Shown here piece after piece: positions 887 through 38,650 of a DNA stretch of 64,000 nucleotides. Positions within the stretch are counted from its first letter, which is position 1. Every line of letters begins with the position of its first letter. Made by a program: the position numbers and the translations under genes. The notes under the pieces are model-generated. The model saw only the letters and a program-made list of their open reading frames with translations, was not told where the DNA came from and ran no database searches. Source of the DNA: Plumapathes pennacea (Eukaryota > Cnidaria > Anthozoa > Antipatharia > Myriopathidae); the NCBI GenBank assembly GCA_964036295.1, contig OZ038469.1:7642067-7706066 (forward strand), read 5' to 3'.

Positions 887-898
887 GTGAGTACTTAC

Positions 899-924
899 AG
901 TGGCGCCTAAAAGTTTTAGGACAT
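899..924 (+). repeat. Left terminal inverted repeat of element 1
   Basis: These 26 bp are the exact reverse complement of 7952-7977. The repeat starts 12 bases into the host intron, immediately after the splice donor of the reductase exon. Confidence 0.9.
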
Positions 925-939
925 TTCACGCCCAATTTA

Positions 940-1500
940 TCGTGCACTACATGCACTTTACACGCTGTTGCGTTGACTACACGTATTCATAAACTTGCGT
1001 GTAATCAACGCAATTGCAAAAGCGGCCAAAAACTACACGCAGCTTCGTGGCTCATTAACAGCGTGTATTACACGCAGCTAGAGATGAAGGTGTGACAGCT
1101 CTTTTGTGCGATGACAAAGACGGCTAAACCATTGTTTGTAGTCGTTTGCAGTCGTCAGAGCGAATCTTTCTAAAGCTTTATCCTGAATTCTGTGCTTTTT
1201 GTTCCCGGCCGCTTTTCTAAACTCTTCCACTTTGCTTCTGTAACCACCGAAGTTTATATAAAAAAACTCGTCAGAACGAATCGTTTCGAAAACCGTTCTA
1301 GTATCCTTTACGTGCGGCCGCTTTGATAAACTCTTCCACTTCGCTTCAATAACCTCCGAAGATTTATCCTAAATTCGGCCGCTAATTTATAAACTCGTCC
1401 GAACTAATCTTTCAATTCGTTTTTAAAAAGTTTGCTTCGAAGCTCTTGTTTACGGCCGCTCTATTATTTACACGCTGTGGTCACGCTTTTTGTTTTGGAA
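940..1500. repeat. Left subterminal repeat array of element 1
   Basis: The outer part (940-1085) has repeated CGTGTA and TACACG words. The inner part has degenerate units of about 60-110 bp, each with a CGGCCGC core (1206, exact GCGGCCGC at 1314, 1376, 1453) followed by TAAACTCTTCCACTT-like sequence and CCGAA. The reverse complement of one unit aligns with units on the right side of the element, so the arrays are inverted relative to each other. Confidence 0.75.
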
Positions 1501-2130
1501 TCTGCATAATCAGTCCGACACTGGCACTTCGAAAACCAATATGGATCAAGTAACTTGTGCGCCACCCCAGACGTTTTGGTGGCGTTAAAGTTACCACATG
1601 TTAACTTATACGCCACCCACTTTTTAATTTTTTTTTCTATGAAGGTTTATCATGGATAAAAACACACCGAAATACACCAGCGTTTAGAAAAGCTTTTAAA
1701 AGGATTCATTGTTTACGCAATTTGACACCTCAACGCCTCCTTCGGCTCATTAGCACTAAACGTCTATTGAAACTGATCATTTGTGTTTGTGCTCCTTTGC
1801 ACTCATGTTTCTAGTTAAACTTTTTTCAAGATTTAATTCTAGTGTTTGTAGATGTGTTTGGGTTTAGCGATTCTTTTCGATCAGCGGTGCGCGTATTTTA
1901 TATTTTTAGCTCATATTTCAAGATGTTTTTCCCCTTCCGTTCGGATCTGATATTGTTGGCAATCTTTCAAAGTGGATGTGTTTGTGTTTTGTGATTTTTT
2001 CCCTTCCCATCAGTAGCGCACGAATTTTATATTTTATATTTTTAGCTGCAGGATTTTTTCCTCTAAAGCTTTGATAATTGCCACTTTGATAAATATGAAG
2101 ATGTTTGATGATCACAGACTTTATTTCAGC

Positions 2131-2150
2131 TGGTGGCTCCTAAAGGAGCC
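2131..2150 (-). terminator. Histone-type 3' stem-loop (GGCTCC-TTTA-GGAGCC-ACCA)
   Basis: On the - strand a perfect 6-bp stem GGCTCC/GGAGCC closes a TTTA tetraloop and is followed at once by ACCA. It is preceded by an A-rich run. This is the layout of the stem-loop bound by SLBP at the end of replication-dependent histone mRNAs. An AATAAA lies about 10 nt further on, and another lies about 145 nt upstream at 2297-2292. It is downstream of the small ORF ending at 2388 and 1.6 kb downstream of the transposase stop, so which transcript would use it is open. Confidence 0.55.
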
Positions 2151-2208
2151 ATTTTTAAGGTCGGCGTCTCACGAAAGTGAGAAGCACGACCTTGTTGCGG
2201 CCACGACA

Positions 2209-2262
2209 CCGTCAGTCCGTCAGTCAGTCCATCAGTCAGTCCGTCAGTCAGTCCGTCATCTG
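2209..2262. repeat. CAGT/CCGT tandem microsatellite
   Basis: A run of CAGTCCGT and CAGTCAGT tetranucleotide units with a few substitutions. It makes a spurious low-complexity reading on both strands. Confidence 0.9.
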
Positions 2263-2387
2263 TGTCAACAATAGGCTTCCAAATTAGGAAGTTTATTCCA
2301 AATTTGGGCACGACCACGCATGATGAAATGAAATACATTTCAAGAGATCGATTAACTTTAAAGGCACGGAATTATACGACCTTTTAA

Positions 2388-2630
2388 TCACGGCTTTTGG
2401 TGAAAGTATGAATGCGGAAGATGCTCCAAAGGTTTATACTTGCTCTTGGCCGATACCTCGAGTGTTTCAAGCATCGCCCGATTTTCCTGATAAACTCTGT
2501 GTGAAAACAACATTTCATACTGGCGTAACGGTACGGACTTTATATCGATCGTGTAGTTATTATTTTGTGTGAATGTTTCAGTCGGTTGACCGTACACAGG
2601 AACCCGGCGTTCATCTCTATCGACACTCAT
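2388..2630 (-). CDS. Hypothetical small protein inside element 1
   Basis: This 80-codon ORF starts at an ATG and shows no low-complexity bias. The product is basic and polar with no membrane segment or motif I recognise. It reads in the transposase direction, and the histone-type stem-loop lies about 240 nt beyond its stop. It could be a third element gene, a terminal exon, or a chance ORF. I do not recognise the family. Confidence 0.25.
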   Translation of the reverse strand: MSVDRDERRVPVYGQPTETFTQNNNYTIDIKSVPLRQYEMLFSHRVYQENRAMLETLEVSAKSKYKPLEHLPHSYFHQKP

Positions 2631-3739
2631 TGTGCAGTGGACGCGCGCGATTTAGTTGTTTACATTCCTCAGTTTAAATTTGCCTGGATAACTTACCGCA
2701 AGACTTGAAGTATATTGTGTATGCCGAAGCCCTTGAACGAAAGGTTACTTTGGTGTTCTTCGTTGATAATGAGTTACAATATTATTAAGAGTTCGCTCGA
2801 ACGAACTATGCAAGAAAACAACACATTCTTGTACGTATGTACGTATTCAGTCATCCGGTTAATATTTATCTGTTTCATCGGATTACCGAGACTGTAAATA
2901 TGTGAACCTTCTATGACAGGTCATTCATGTGACTATAATAAACTTCACTCAAAAAGCATTTTGTATTCGTCGTCATTTGAAACCCGAGTTAAAGATTACC
3001 GCGTGAATATGTATACCGCTTGGAAGGAAGTTACGCCGCTCAAAATGATTTAAACACCGGTAAAGCGGGCAAGGTTTGTGCACTTTAGAATAATAATATC
3101 CTGTCAATGTTCGCTTTGAGTTGAGGGGATTAGGCCACTTTGAGGTTTACGAGAAGTTATTTGACTCTCTGAGCTGAGCTGATTACCTCATTAAATATGC
3201 ATGTTACGCTTGATTGAGTGCAAGCGTGTTGCCCTCAGTGGTAAAGCGTGATGTCTTACTTTGCAAAATTTTCCATTCGAATCTCTAAACATACACAGCT
3301 GCTGCACAAACGTGTGCAAAGTTTCAAATCGCTAGCCCTACTGACAGCAACCAGATAGCTCCATACTGAACTCTCTTATTTAGCATCAGTTCTAAATCAA
3401 AGGAACCATTAACACCAAATAGGAGGGTTTAGTGTTGAGCAATTTGAACTTCAATAGCCCACATCTCAGCTGTTCAATGCGCTAAAGAGCTAATTTTTTG
3501 TGTGACCGTTTTTAGACAGGGCATTCCACAGAATTGTCTAAAATCCATATTCCAATATTTTTTGTGACATCACTTTACCACTATATTCACTCAAGGCAAT
3601 CCCTACTTTAGATCAGTTAAGACACAAGCCTGTTGTACGGACTAGACCACAACCAAAGTCTGCCAATCAAAAAGATAGCCGACCTTACAGCGGCATCGCT
3701 GCTTTGATTGTGTGTTTGCTCCAAAGAGCGGGGTTGATT

Positions 3740-4964
3740 TCAGTGTCCCAAAGCCTTCCCATTCCTCTCAATGATGGCTGGAATAACTTTCTGCAGATGG
3801 TCGATGTACGTTCTGCACTTCTCGGCGGTAATTTCGCTCCATTTCTGCTGGATTCCCGCAAGCAGCTCTTCTTTGTTCATGGGTTTCACGATGCGCCGCA
3901 GATGTGACTTCAGCTCGTTCCACATCATCTCGATTGGGTTGAGATCTGGACTTTCAGCGGGAGTCGGCCAGTACGTGACGTCGTTATCCTCAATGAACTG
4001 CATTGCAAGGCGACCTACAACAACAATAAGAAATTAACCAATTAGAACATCATTAACTTAGCAAGAAATACGCGATTCCAGTGTTAATACTTACTCCTGT
4101 GCTTCGGATCGTTGTCTTGTTGAAAACGATAGCCATCAGGAAATACATCGTTTGCAAACGGTACGAGGGAATCGCGAAGAATCGATTCCACGTAGAACTC
4201 CTTCCTCATGATCCCTGTAAACAAGACAATCCCTGTTGCTCCCCTTTTCGAAATCCCTGCCCAAGCGTGGACTTTGTAGGGATGTTTTGGAGTTGGCTTG
4301 AGTTTGGCGGGCATTCCGATCTTTCTAAAGCAGATACGGCCGTGTCGCTCTAACCAAATGCTGCATTCGTCGGTGAATATAACATTGTCAAATGTTTCGT
4401 TGGGCGAACTCCAGGCGGGCAACTCAATTCGCTTCGCGCACGATCTGACAATATTTTGGGCCAGTCTTCCTCCAGCCTAGTTTGTACCGTATAGATTTTA
4501 TAGCGGACAGGGAGGGCTTCATACCAAACTGTTGGTTGAGTAACTTCAGCAAACCTGTAAAAGAAAAATAGTATTTTATCAATGATTGATACTGCCCATA
4601 AAACTTCAGTGCTTCAAATTTCTTGCTGTAAGTTCGAAAAATAGTATTTCGTCAATGATTCATAGATCCTCTGATAGTGCATATAACTTCAATTACCTGG
4701 CGCTGTTAGTTCGTCGTTCTCCTCTAGTTTGGCGTCTATGAAGTCGAAGTGTTGCAGCTGGAACTTCGAAGGGCGCCCACTGCTGATCTTGTAACCGAGT
4801 GTTCCCTGGCTCGCATATTCTTTCAGTATCCTACTCACTGTCTTTCGATTGATGCGAAAACCTTCGACCTCATCCAGCATGCGAGTAATCTGACTTATTG
4901 TTTTGTTTTCAGACAAACGGAGCGAGATTATTCTAAACCTGATAAATGGAGGAGTGCGAGGCAT
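3740..4964 (-). pseudogene. Tc1-type DD34E transposase with two introns, broken
   Basis: Cut-and-paste transposase in three exons: 4964-4697, 4554-4095 and 4014-3740. Introns are 142 and 80 bp with consensus GTAAT/GTAAGT donors and TTTTACAG/TTGTTGTAG acceptors, and phases agree across both. Exon 1 has the paired helix-turn-helix DNA-binding region (RLSENKTISQITRML, then KTVSRILKEY) and a GRPSK linker. Exons 2-3 hold the DDE catalytic fold: FTDEC (first Asp), FQQDNDPKH (second Asp) and SPDLNPIE (Glu), with exactly 34 residues between the second Asp and the Glu. Exon 2 has an in-frame TGA about 40 codons in, followed by a frame change before NETFDNVIF, so this copy is inactive. Most Tc1 transposases are intronless. 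Confidence 0.88.
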
Positions 4965-5236
4965 CTTGAGACCAGTATTAATTTTCCGACGAGTAGTAAG
5001 AACTAGAATGTAAACACCAGAGTCTTCTTGTGTGATTTGAAGAACTGTCTCCTCTGCAGTAAGTCAGACCGCTATTGTTTACATGGATCGTATTTGTCCA
5101 ATGGCTGATGAGTTTGCACAACCTATTGTCATTTGACAGATTGAAATGCAGTCACTGCACTTACTGCCGAGGAAACACCTTGTTTAAATGTATAAAATGC
5201 TTAAAAAGTTTAGTAAGTGACCTTGATTACGTAAAC
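4965..5236. promoter_or_regulatory. Shared divergent promoter region of element 1
   Basis: These 272 bp separate the start codons of the transposase (-) and the BEN gene (+), so both must be driven from here. On the + side there is a CCAAT box at about 5098 and a TATAAAA at 5191-5197, 40 nt before the BEN start. I see no comparable TATA on the - side. Promoter function is inferred from position and motifs only. Confidence 0.5.
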
Positions 5237-7160
5237 ATGAGTCTCAGACGCGCCTTGAAAGTTCCGAACTACGGCTTGTTCTACTTTCCGTCGGACCAGT
5301 CAACAAGCATAGTTCTGACAAAGAATATTGTCAAAGTTTTATCGGGTGACAACACGTCCAAGGGGAGCCGAGTGACGATTAAGTTTGGCCGAGATGTATT
5401 TGAAGCTGAGATTGTCGATGTCCATGGTAAGTTGAAATTTCTCAAATTTCAAACTTATTTGAGGTACATCTCAATGACCCAATTACTAATATGTGTTTAT
5501 TATTCGTTCTCACAGATGACCAGTCCGTTTTAAGAAAACTAGATGAAGAGTTCTGGGCAAGTCAATTCGACAAAGAAAACGCTTTGCCGCCTCCGAAAAA
5601 AACCAAAATGACACCGAAGAAAACGACGCCAAAGAAACCGAAAACGAGAGCTCCAAAGCAGAAAAAAGGACCAAAGGAGAAGGAGCTGGTAAGTTACTAC
5701 TTTTACTGCAGTGAATGGGAACCATTTATATTCTTCGAGTAATACATCGATTATTAACGAACGTTACGAACTAGCGTATTGCTTGCGTTACCGTGAATGT
5801 CGCATTGCATCTTGTTGTGTTGTTGTTGAAGACTCAGTTGTGTTCAATAAGTTAGTCCAGTTCTCTGAACCAGTTTGGCGAATATATCTCGAGTAATACA
5901 CCAATAAAAACAATAACAACAAAAACAATATACGGATTGTTCACGTAACGAACACTTGGATTCTGACTGGACAAATTAGACTTTACTAATTTGTTTTTTT
6001 TTTACCTGCAGGCAACCGTAGTGGCCCGATTTCCTGCTGCCAGGCCTCTGAAACCTATCACTGTGACGAACAATATACCGATTGTTGACATAACAAACAC
6101 TATAACAGCGACTGTTGACACTACTGAAACTGACTCTACTGAAACTGATACACCGGTTGTTGCTGACTCTACTGAAACTGACTTTACACCGATTGTTACT
6201 GACTCTATTGAAACTGACAGTCCACAGAATATTAGCGAAACCGACATTCATATGAGTGTTGTCGAAGACAGCATTGATGAGAACGACAGCTCCTTCTTGG
6301 AAGGAGCTTACCCAGACATTTCACGACATACGGCTTCAAACCTACAAACATCACGATTACTGACAGAAGTACTGACAGCAAACTATGACTTTAACGACAT
6401 GTTTCATGAACCTCATCATGAACCTGACATCCCTGACAAGCCTTTGGGCAACATGTTTCATGAACCTCATCATGAACCTGACATCCCTGACAAGCCTTTG
6501 GGTGACATGATACTGACGGTTTTACAGAAACAAGACTTAATACTGCAACAGTTACAACAACAACAGACAATCCTCAACCAACTGTTGAGTGTTTCAAGAC
6601 TGCCTAGAGGTAAAACGGTCCGGCAGATTCCACCACTTGTTCGCTCAAGCTCGCCACAAGTACCGCCGCCAACAGTGCCAGAAGTACCGCCGCCAGCAGT
6701 GCAGCCAGCAATGCCGCCAACAATGCCCTCAACAGCGACCCCAACAGTGCCACAAGTACCGCTGCCAACAGTGCCAGAAGTACCACCGCCAGCAGTGCAG
6801 CCAGCAATGCCGCCAACAGTGCCCTCAACAGCGACCCCAACAGCGACCCCAACAGTGCCGCCGGCAGACAACCTTTCCCCCGAGGAGCTATTTAAGTTGA
6901 AAATTAGATCGTCCTCTGTAGGAAATTTCGCGGTACATCTGCTGAGAAAAAAGTTTGAACAAAGCGAACTGCTTGGGAAAAACGTAAATGGATGTCGGGG
7001 CAAAGAAAAGCTAGACTCAGCAAGGGTAAACATCATCAAAGAATACGTTTTTCAGATGCATCCAACTAGTCCGAGAGAAGAGGAAAACGTGTGGCGTTTA
7101 TGTGTAAAAGCAATGGACGAGTATATTCGAAGGCCAGTAAAGAAGCGTGTAAGCCAGTAG
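5237..7160 (+). CDS. BEN-domain protein encoded by element 1
   Basis: Exons 5237-5426, 5516-5688 and 6012-7160 join in frame (GTAAGT donors, CACAG and CTGCAG acceptors) to about 503 residues. Residues 1-75 form a globular N-terminal module ending FEAEIVDVHDD. A Lys/Pro-rich stretch with the look of a nuclear localisation signal follows, then an acidic Thr-rich region. Next are two tandem copies of an 18-residue unit containing FHEPHHEPDIPDKPLG, a Gln/Leu-rich coil, and Pro-rich tandem repeats. The C-terminal 85 residues are a BEN domain, with NGCRGKEKLD, a hydrophobic helix and VWRLCVKAMDEYIRR. BEN domains bind DNA and act in chromatin and transcription. The reading frame is intact. An AATAAA sits at 7249. 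The start at 5237 gives the best N-terminal match; an in-frame ATG exists at 5075. Confidence 0.85.
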
Positions 7161-7248
7161 GTTTTATATTATCACAATAACAATCTTGTCAGTTTCAAAA
7201 GGTGTTGTCGATCTTTATATACACTGTTTGCCGTTGAAGAGAAATCAC

Positions 7249-7254
7249 AATAAA
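7249..7254 (+). terminator. Poly(A) signal of the BEN gene
   Basis: A canonical AATAAA lies 89 nt after the BEN stop codon, in contrast to the histone-type stem-loop on the transposase strand. Confidence 0.55.
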
Positions 7255-7269
7255 TAACTTTAGAAAGCA

Positions 7270-7945
7270 ATGCAAAGTAAAGTTGAAGAGAAATCTGAAT
7301 AAATGTTCGGAAGCATTCGAACAGCACAAATTGAAGTAAAAGGAGTTAAACAGCGGCCGCGTTCTACAAGAGAAATCAGATTAAATGTTCGACAGCACTC
7401 GAACGGCAAAGTAAGGCCGCTTACAAACAAGAGAGGTCAGAATAAATGTTCGGAAACATTCGAAGGGCAAAGTAAATGAGTTTAATAGCGGCCGCTTACA
7501 ACAAGATAAATCAGAATAAATTAATGTTTGGAAACATTCGAACGGCAAAGTAAAGAAGTTTAACAGCGGCCATGAATAACAAGATACATCACTGTGATAA
7601 ATGTTCAGAAGCATTCGAATGATGAAGTAACGGAGTTTAATAAAAGCGGCAGCGTTTAACCAAGAATATTCAGTTAGATCGCTTTTGAGCGACAAAAAGG
7701 AGCAAAAGCGGCCCGACGTATCACGATTCGCTTGAAAGAAGCCAATAATTGCAGACAAAAGAATTTTCAGTTCAGAGCGCTGCGTTGACTACACACAGAA
7801 AACTTCAGAAAACAATCGTCTGCATAACAAAAGGTAAACTACACGCAGTAACGTGTAGTACACGCTGTGAGTGTAATACACGCTGCTTGAGTTAATGAGC
7901 TTTAGCGTGTATTACACGTACGTGTAGTGCACGTACTTTACACGC
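7270..7945. repeat. Right subterminal repeat array of element 1
   Basis: Degenerate units of about 65-80 bp read AAATGTTCGGAAGCATTCGA, then GGAGTTTAA, then the GCGGCCGC core. Cores are at 7353 (exact), 7415, 7488 (exact) and 7566, with weaker ones after. The outer 7790-7945 carries CGTGTA/TACACG words like the left end. The orientation is inverted relative to the left array. Confidence 0.75.
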
Positions 7946-7951
7946 GTGGAC

Positions 7952-7977
7952 ATGTCCTAAAACTTTTAGGCGCCACT
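7952..7977 (-). repeat. Right terminal inverted repeat of element 1
   Basis: Exact reverse complement of 899-924 over 26 bp. Confidence 0.9.
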
Positions 7978-36120: not shown

Positions 36121-36689
36121 TTCAGCTCGAAAGATCAAGCCGTTCAAATTGAGTGTTGGTCGCATCGTCACACGATTGAGATAGAAAGTTACATGACATA
36201 CATCGCAGCAAGTTATCGCATGTCCCATATCTTTTCCCATGTGACAAGCCTTCCGGTTGTATTTGACTGGCGACTTTTAGACGGTATTGCATCATTTCAA
36301 GTGCAAACACCACTTTGTCTACCAAACATTGAAGCCGTTGTGAGTGCTCTAAATTGTCTGAATTTGATTCCCTGGAGTGATTTCAAACAAAAACTCGAAA
36401 AACTCCGACGATCGTAATGAAACATGCATCAACAGAGAAAATGGGATTTAGAAACGAAGTTTACTACAAGTTGATTCTCCCGCTATTCATACAGTACAGC
36501 CCAGATGTAAGTTCCCTCTAATGAGCGACCGCAGAACGAGCGATTGGCGAGCGTGGAGCGAGCACAGATCACGGGTTATGCGTAACGCATCCACATAATT
36601 GATTACCTTTGTGCCTATCTGTTGTTCTAAAACACAATGAAATGAAAAGGAACAAGTGTCAAATATCGGCTGGTTTAGCTGTCGCAGTG

Positions 36690-37171: not shown

Positions 37172-37846
37172 TCACTTGCGGCGTAGAAACTCATCGATTG
37201 CTGTAATACAATGCTGCCACAATCTTGGTCTATATGCTGGTGGCATTGGGTAGAACTCAAGAACTGCTTGTTTCACAAATTCAAGTTTGTATTCATCGAG
37301 CTTTTGTTTTCCTCTTGCACCTCTGCAATTGCGATTTTCCAATTCAGTTGGATCAAAAATTTCCGATACGATGTTTTTCGCAAAATTTGGCTCCGAACAG
37401 GTTTTGACATTGATTTCAATCAATGCATCGTGGCTGATTGGCTGAGGGACAGTGTTGGAGTCCACAGCACTGGCGCTTGTTTCTAAGATGTTTCACTGCT
37501 CCAAGAAGTCTGCTGTGGCGGCTGCGGCTGCATCAAATTCCTCGAATGGGTCTGGCTGCTGCTGCTGCTGCTGAAGTTGAATGAACAATCCATGCAGGGC
37601 GTCAACCTTGCGATGGAGAGACCAGATTAATTCTCTCTTGCAAAAACTCCATATCAGGAAACAGACGACGGATGGCTGGTGGACTTGATGGAAATTCAGC
37701 GACAGGTGAGATGGTTGGACTTGGTGGGTCAGCAGGCAATTCAATGACGGGTGATATGGGTGGAATTATCAGCACAGTTCGGTTATTTGGCAATTCAGCG
37801 ACAGTCGGAATTGGCGCTTCTACTACACGATACACACTTGCTGGCT
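37172..37846 (-). pseudogene. BEN-domain gene of element 2, degraded
   Basis: After a CTTTCAG acceptor at about 37847 comes a Pro-rich region (PPSPTISPVAEFPSSPP). A frame change at about 37630 leads to a coil with a Gln run (LHRKVDALHGLFIQLQQQQQQ), then an in-frame TGA at 37495-37493. The frame continues into a BEN domain (NRNCRGARGKQKLDEYKLEF, LWQHCITAIDEFLRRK) ending at 37172. Domain order (Pro-rich, Gln coil, BEN) matches the intact gene in element 1, though the sequence is well diverged. N-terminal exons are not recognised. AATAAA signals follow within about 10-25 nt of the stop. Confidence 0.75.
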
Positions 37847-38243
37847 GAAAGTATGTGTAGAAAAGTAGAATATAAATATATTGTTGGGAAATTGTGAAAG
37901 TACATTTCATATATCGGATGAAACTTGAAAACATATTGGTATTAGGGAAAATATTGAAAAGGGAATGCATTCACAAGCTAAGAGTAAGACATCAGAACAA
38001 AGTCAAAACAAATGCAAACGAATTCAAAACAAATTCAAAGTTTTCCGTCTCCTTTTATGCAAAGTTGCGCTAATTGCGGTGCTTACTCTGACCATTTAAT
38101 TAGTGCATTGTTGCGTTATGGACAATGAAATATTGGCCTTAAAATCTGTAGCCGTCGCATTGTTGTGTTGTAAAGTAATTTTAGGTGTTTCTCGAGTTCG
38201 GAATTGTAAGTAAAGGTTTGTTGGTGGATACAACGTTTTCGTC

Positions 38244-38650
38244 ATGATATTTCATCAGAAATCATCAGAATTCTACTGCGACCAGATACTGAAGAAAGCT
38301 CTCAAGTCATTTTTGGATCAGCGATTTCCAGATGGCCACCGCTTTCAGCAGGACAATGATTCAAAACACACTAGCAAAAAGGCACGAGCTGCAATGGACG
38401 AGCTGGGCATCAACTGGTGGAAAACACCACCCGAGAGCCCAGACCTGAATCCCATCGAGAATATTTGGCATCAGCTGAAGGGTACTTGCGGACGGAAGTG
38501 AAACTGATGGTCAAAGACGAACTTATTAATGGCATCCAAAAGTTTTGGACAGAGAAGATGACATTGACGCAGTGTGTTATGTACATCAACCACCTGCACG
38601 GGGTCATACCGCTGGTGATTGCCAACAATGCTGGTCCTTCCGGCCGCTGA
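38244..38650 (+). pseudogene. Tc1 DD34E transposase remnant of element 2
   Basis: The C-terminal half of the catalytic domain: [17 protein letters not shown] (second Asp), then [16 protein letters not shown] (Glu) with 34 residues between them. After one frameshift at about 38482 comes [22 protein letters not shown], then MYINHLHGVIPLVI and the stop at 38648. The N-terminal DNA-binding part and first Asp are absent. There is no intron at the position of intron 2 in element 1's gene, so the two transposases belong to different lineages or one lost its intron. Confidence 0.82.

Follow-up and report, generated by a model that had tools for sequence, protein, structure and literature searches.

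The 64,000-nucleotide (nt) window analyzed here (positions 7,642,067 to 7,706,066 of contig OZ038469.1, assembly GCA_964036295.1) comes from the antipatharian Plumapathes pennacea and contains two DNA transposons, each with a BEN-domain gene lying head to head with a DD34E Tc1 transposase gene (Table 1). Element 1 covers positions 898-7977 (7.08 kb). Its BEN gene comprises three exons with GT-AG introns and a joined open frame of 503 amino acids (aa); its transposase gene, on the minus strand, likewise has three exons and GT-AG introns, and is decayed by a stop codon and a frameshift. The genes of element 2 are also head to head, are both broken, and are homologous to those of element 1 (tblastn E 7e-15 for BEN and 5e-11 for the transposase). 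Pfam analysis reports BEN domains (PF10523, cut-off 23.2 bits) for element 1 (40.2 bits), element 2 (29.5 bits), and L059, a further copy described below (26.3 bits), as well as a DDE_3 match (E 1.3e-7) for the element 1 transposase. The 34-residue DD34E spacing is present in the transposases of elements 1 and 2, L059, and the related locus L062, while HTH_32 and PAX (helix-turn-helix, HTH, region) matches in those of element 1 and L059 score under the Pfam cut-offs. The closest sequences in the PDB are BEND3 for the BEN protein and Sleeping Beauty (5cr4, 3.2e-16) for the transposase. The divergent BEN and DD34E pair that the initial annotation had described at both loci is thus upheld by Pfam, tblastn, and the 34-residue spacing. 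Since both window transposases are broken, the window copies cannot supply their own transposase. Two GT-AG introns are found in the transposase gene of family A, to which element 1 belongs; in L059 and L062 the gene consists of a single open reading frame (ORF).

Table 1. Features of the two elements in window coordinates (TIR, terminal inverted repeat).
Feature	Position	Strand	Remarks
TA target duplication, left of element 1	896..897		true left end, 898, directly after
Left TIR of element 1 (family A), CAGTGGCGCCTAAAAGTTTTAGGACAT	898..924	+	70 genome matches to 23-nt core
Transposase exon 3 (last D-to-E part, DDE_3)	3740..4014	-	
Transposase exon 2	4095..4554	-	carries in-frame stop and frameshift
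Transposase exon 1 (HTH region)	4697..4964	-	matches under Pfam cut-off
272-bp spacer between start codons	4965..5236		putative shared promoter, function inferred
BEN gene exon 1, N-terminal domain	5237..5426	+	predicted all-beta; no Pfam family
BEN gene exon 2 (basic linker)	5516..5688	+	
BEN gene exon 3, repeat-rich linker and BEN domain (~6927-7136)	6012..7160	+	PF10523 E 4e-10
Right TIR of element 1	7952..7977	-	26 nt left; terminal two bases gone relative to other copies
Left TIR of element 2 (family C), CAGTACAGCCCAGATGTAAGTTCCCT	36492..36517	+	
Element 2 BEN gene remnant, broken	37172..37846	-	domain within 37175-37492; PF10523 E 9e-7
Element 2 transposase remnant, DD34E part, broken	38214..38650	+	DDE_3 E 7.4e-13

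The TIR arms of element 1 (899-927 and 7949-7977) are 97% complementary over 29 nt, and the two arms of the 26-nt repeat noted initially are indeed identical, although the left end had to be moved from 899 to 898, with TA as the target. The right end reads CACT/ATG, where other copies read CACTG/TA, the slash marking the element boundary; hence its last two bases have been lost. A 23-nt TIR core is found at 70 places in the 290-Mb genome with ≤3 mismatches, and at none with a reversed-pattern control. The search for TA duplications in aligned copies, as initially proposed, was positive: TA precedes 26 of the 28 ends of the 20 family-A loci fetched (L039-L058), and also flanks L059 and L060. 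TA flanks both ends in seven of the eight two-ended family-A loci, all but the window copy. The family-A ends belong to Tc1/mariner. The odd right end had first hinted at another superfamily (hAT), which is ruled out by the TA flanks on both sides elsewhere. The word "composite" first applied to element 1 does not fit, because its two genes lie in one TIR-bounded element.

Beyond the window, a genome search with two BEN and two transposase queries returns, after merging, 28 BEN loci and 42 transposase loci. Seven BEN/transposase pairs lie within 1.5 kb of each other, all divergent, against ~0.04 expected by chance within 5 kb. These are window elements 1 and 2, L059, L060, L061, L064, and C11:10406384, and they define three families, A (element 1), B (L059, L060, L064), and C (element 2, L061), between which the transposases are 47-60% identical and the BEN domains 31-43%. 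A BEN match lies within 5 kb of five of the ten transposase loci above 100 bits. The terminus pattern common to families B and C occurs at 64 genome places (control, 0), and a TIR of family A or B/C (134 places in all) is no more than 1 kb away from 15 of the 28 merged BEN loci, against 0.03 expected, a count that is partly circular because these very elements supplied the BEN queries. Therefore, the recurrence of the divergent pair within one TIR unit, as initially suggested, is observed in three families of one genome. No relatives were found in viral contigs with patterns derived from the L059 transposase. BEN frames of 258-375 aa are also present with no transposase match within 50 kb and no A or B/C TIR within 5 kb (G000 C6:12407330, C6:11826016, C2:30917635, C1:38732219, C7:533929), and are candidate host genes or members of further element families.

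Family B provides full-length two-gene copies. L059:939-5364 (4,426 bp) reads TA/CAGTGCCGCC...GGCGGTACTG/TA and holds, between its TIRs, a single-exon transposase ORF of 340 aa and a divergent BEN gene; it is an apparently open copy encoding both proteins. Its insertion interrupts a retrotransposon-like ORF (RVT_1 E 0.0027, a weak match under the cut-off), whose frame is continuous again once the two flanks are joined with a single TA. L060 together with L065 forms a second full-length copy (4,568 bp), with a broken transposase and with both genes inside TIRs and TA, and L064 retains the two gene ends around an internal deletion. Both genes are thus mobile together in family B, within one unit bounded by TIRs and TA. 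Insertion of the BEN gene at a later time with its own duplications, an outcome considered in the initial annotation, is ruled out by L059 and L060, each being one unit. The same copies bear on the explanation that a BEN-carrying element or a host BEN gene merely happens to lie beside, or nested with, Tc1 copies. Element 2 and L061 would allow it, being degraded and devoid of a confirmed second TIR (the right TIR of element 2 was searched for within the window and not found), but seven divergent pairs against 0.04 expected, the enclosure of both genes in TIRs and TA in L059 and L060, and the clean closure of the L059 empty site make it extremely improbable, and largely refute it already for family B. 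A two-gene Tc1/mariner class is, in our assessment, almost certainly real.

Judged by their sequences, the BEN genes of the paired elements share a common descent. BEN exon 1 is 42% identical between families A and B, intron 1 is in phase 1 and at a homologous site in both, and the gaps between start codons amount to 272 bp in element 1, 287 bp in L059, and 277 bp in L060. Searched with BEN exon 1 of L059, the genome yields L059, L060, and element 1, and otherwise a single place at E 0.03. Ratios of nonsynonymous to synonymous substitution rates (dN/dS) were calculated by the Nei-Gojobori method with stops dropped, and are given with bootstrap ranges. The deeper comparison, between element 2 and L061, returns 0.19 for BEN (0.09-0.35, 89 codons) and 0.13 for the transposase (0.03-0.32, 65 codons), so that in this one comparison the BEN coding sequence is under a constraint similar to that of the transposase. 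The ratio is 0.19 (0.04-0.65) for BEN exon 1 between L059 and L060, and 0.55 (0.35-0.95) for BEN between L059 and L064. The BEN tree, from which the L064 row is left out, supports just the groupings of element 2 with L061 (90) and of L059 with L060 (62).

Several observations weigh against a selected two-gene lineage. The pair searches covered one genome only. L064 and C11:10406384 have an identical 17-bp junction, and hence are probably the product of one deletion event. No BEN match lies within 5 kb of 35 of the 42 transposase loci, many of these being distant or fragments, and L062/L063 represent a related BEN-less Tc1 family with an element of ~2.55 kb. In the transposase tree, rooted with L067 (≤22% identity), element 1 stands beside L062/L063 (58% support), and a tree of this support accommodates a loss of BEN as well as a single gain. 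Between L059 and L060, the last BEN exon has a dN/dS of 0.61, with 1 within its range (0.33-1.29), and the transposase values of 0.36 and 0.39 have upper limits of 1.06 and 1.21; between element 1 and L058, BEN reaches 1.04 (0.55-2.31). Dead close pairs are expected to drift, and the signal of constraint thus comes mainly from element 2 and L061, one comparison of 89 codons. Lastly, the structure model of BEN exon 1, beta-rich and of low confidence (mean predicted local distance difference test score, pLDDT, 69.4), returns nothing significant from the PDB with Foldseek (best E 1.0). Part of this would be accommodated by passenger capture, in which a Tc1 element acquired a BEN gene from the host and carries it along as a hitch-hiker with no function for the element: BEN-less relatives and derivatives exist, and the young copies element 1 and L058 have a dN/dS near 1. 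Such a capture is nevertheless improbable in view of the recurrence of the divergent pair across three families with such distant BEN domains, of the common intron and similar spacer, and of the low BEN ratio between element 2 and L061. That BEN has been selected for the benefit of the element is quite likely.

The BEN-less derivatives of family A deserve separate consideration. With tblastn at E 1e-3, both genes are found at one of the 20 family-A loci, the window copy, while L058, where BEN adjoins the right end, is the second locus with a gene match. The initial annotation had held that copies devoid of the BEN gene or the transposase would refute a class; neither gene is found at 18 of the 20 loci, for 12 of the 20 only one TIR is seen and the extent is undefined, and yet the pairing stands. 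At least four loci (L041, L043, L045, L056) keep just the two end regions and, from their sequence, are internal-deletion derivatives. Such derivatives are usual among DNA transposons, and BEN-less copies therefore do not undo the pairing. L066 has a left TIR and transposase exons, with no BEN match within the 4.2 kb fetched. Short derivatives of 0.8-0.9 kb that retain the last 31-33 BEN codons are observed in family B (G000 C2:8140006-8140901, C5:1709536-1710444, C10:3968105-3968998, C6:13288066-13288960, C11:10252955-10253757). As for family C, G000 C4 carries seven same-orientation pairs of its terminus, with members ~1.23 kb apart (C4:22290481, 22723432, 23461237, 24158754, 24927217, 25672307, 26533672); each holds an N-terminal piece of the transposase, successive pairs are separated by 0.43-0.86 Mb, and they are possibly part of a larger repeated unit.

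The best explanation overall, which we hold with fair confidence, is a two-gene DD34E Tc1/mariner lineage with a selected accessory DNA-binding BEN protein. In such a lineage, the transposase would excise the whole TIR-bounded unit and insert it at TA, and the unit also encodes the BEN protein, head to head with the transposase from a spacer of ~280 bp. The predicted BEN protein consists of a small beta-rich N-terminal domain, a low-complexity linker, and a C-terminal BEN domain. It may bind the DNA of its own element, likeliest at the promoter common to both genes, at the CpG-bearing repeats near the ends, or at both, and thereby regulate transposase expression, assist end pairing, or oppose silencing. 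Action on the element's own promoter or ends is plausible, and we put it forward tentatively. PMC11472053 describes DNA binding by BEN domains as sequence-specific, and oligomeric BANP as selecting unmethylated CpG. In element 1, CGTGTA/TACACG repeats number 14 in subterminal versus 3 in internal positions, and in L059, ATCGAG/CTCGAT repeats number 8 versus 0; CpG-bearing subterminal repeats of this kind would suit a DNA-binding partner. However, they are denser in the BEN-less L062 than in the BEN-carrying elements, which weakens the end-binding idea. The L062 element itself (L062:1618-4184) has the TIR CAGTACTGTGCAAAAGTAATGGCA and dense palindromic subterminal arrays of the GAAATTTCG type. 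ACATGT, which NACC1 binds according to PMC7764960, lies at the right TIR of element 1, on its inner edge (element position 7053); being absent from L059, this hexamer is a lead only. Alternatively, BEN might act on host chromatin instead of the promoter or ends of its element, in a targeting or anti-silencing role. According to PMC11472053, BEN proteins act on chromatin and BANP and BEND3 prefer unmethylated CpG, and the beta-rich N-terminal model has non-significant Tudor matches at ranks 2-4; with Foldseek E-values all ≥1, this role appears somewhat unlikely. By analogy with RAG2, BEN could even be an obligate partner that couples transposition to chromatin or methylation state through binding to the tandem CpG-bearing end repeats and a bidirectional promoter, giving a Tc1 transposition system of two proteins, which we consider doubtful.

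The prevailing view of animal Tc1/mariner elements is that they carry one gene and are active in very different hosts because they need little help. If the two-gene lineage with a selected BEN protein is real, a partner kept across diverged families would constitute a natural two-protein Tc1 system, from which animal genomes may have obtained BEN genes. It would also offer a simple case for studying how a transposase acquires a DNA-binding partner, a question that RAG1/RAG2 poses. The system is directly testable, L059 being apparently open and encoding both proteins.

DD34E Tc1 elements are typically single-gene and about 1-2.5 kb long. The present elements resemble the DD34E Tc1-like elements Tc1 and Sleeping Beauty in their TA target, CAGT termini, DDE_3 domain, and DD34E spacing. 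They differ by the second gene, BEN, by its divergent arrangement, by their size of 4.4-7.1 kb (4.43, 4.57, and 7.08 kb), and by the two introns of the family-A transposase. No report of a BEN gene in a Tc1/mariner element was found in the literature searched, which left preprints, Repbase, and most subscription papers outside; to this extent the initial claim of an undescribed class holds, whereas its premise that Tc1 elements encode only a transposase is qualified by the ciliate TBE elements. According to PMC4724952, with which the comparison is made by description, these encode additional ORFs beside a Tc1/mariner transposase, one of 22 kD and a zinc-finger/kinase ORF of 57 kD, and the additional ORFs are under purifying selection. 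With the chromatin factors BEND3, BANP, and NACC1, the element-borne proteins share the BEN domain, by Pfam and by the BEND3 match; those factors are host genes, while here the gene belongs to an element and no Pfam family scores above cut-off in its N-terminal exon. KolobokP (PMC9587614) is likewise a DDE transposon that gained an accessory gene, but it encodes a His-Me nuclease, belongs to another superfamily, and has long terminal direct repeats. Finally, the RAG-like (RAG1L-RAG2L) transposons, as presented in PMC7204232, are also two-gene animal DNA transposons with a recurrent transposase-partner pair; their genes are convergent and their target duplications are 5 bp, whereas the elements reported here have divergent genes, a TA target, and a Tc1 transposase.

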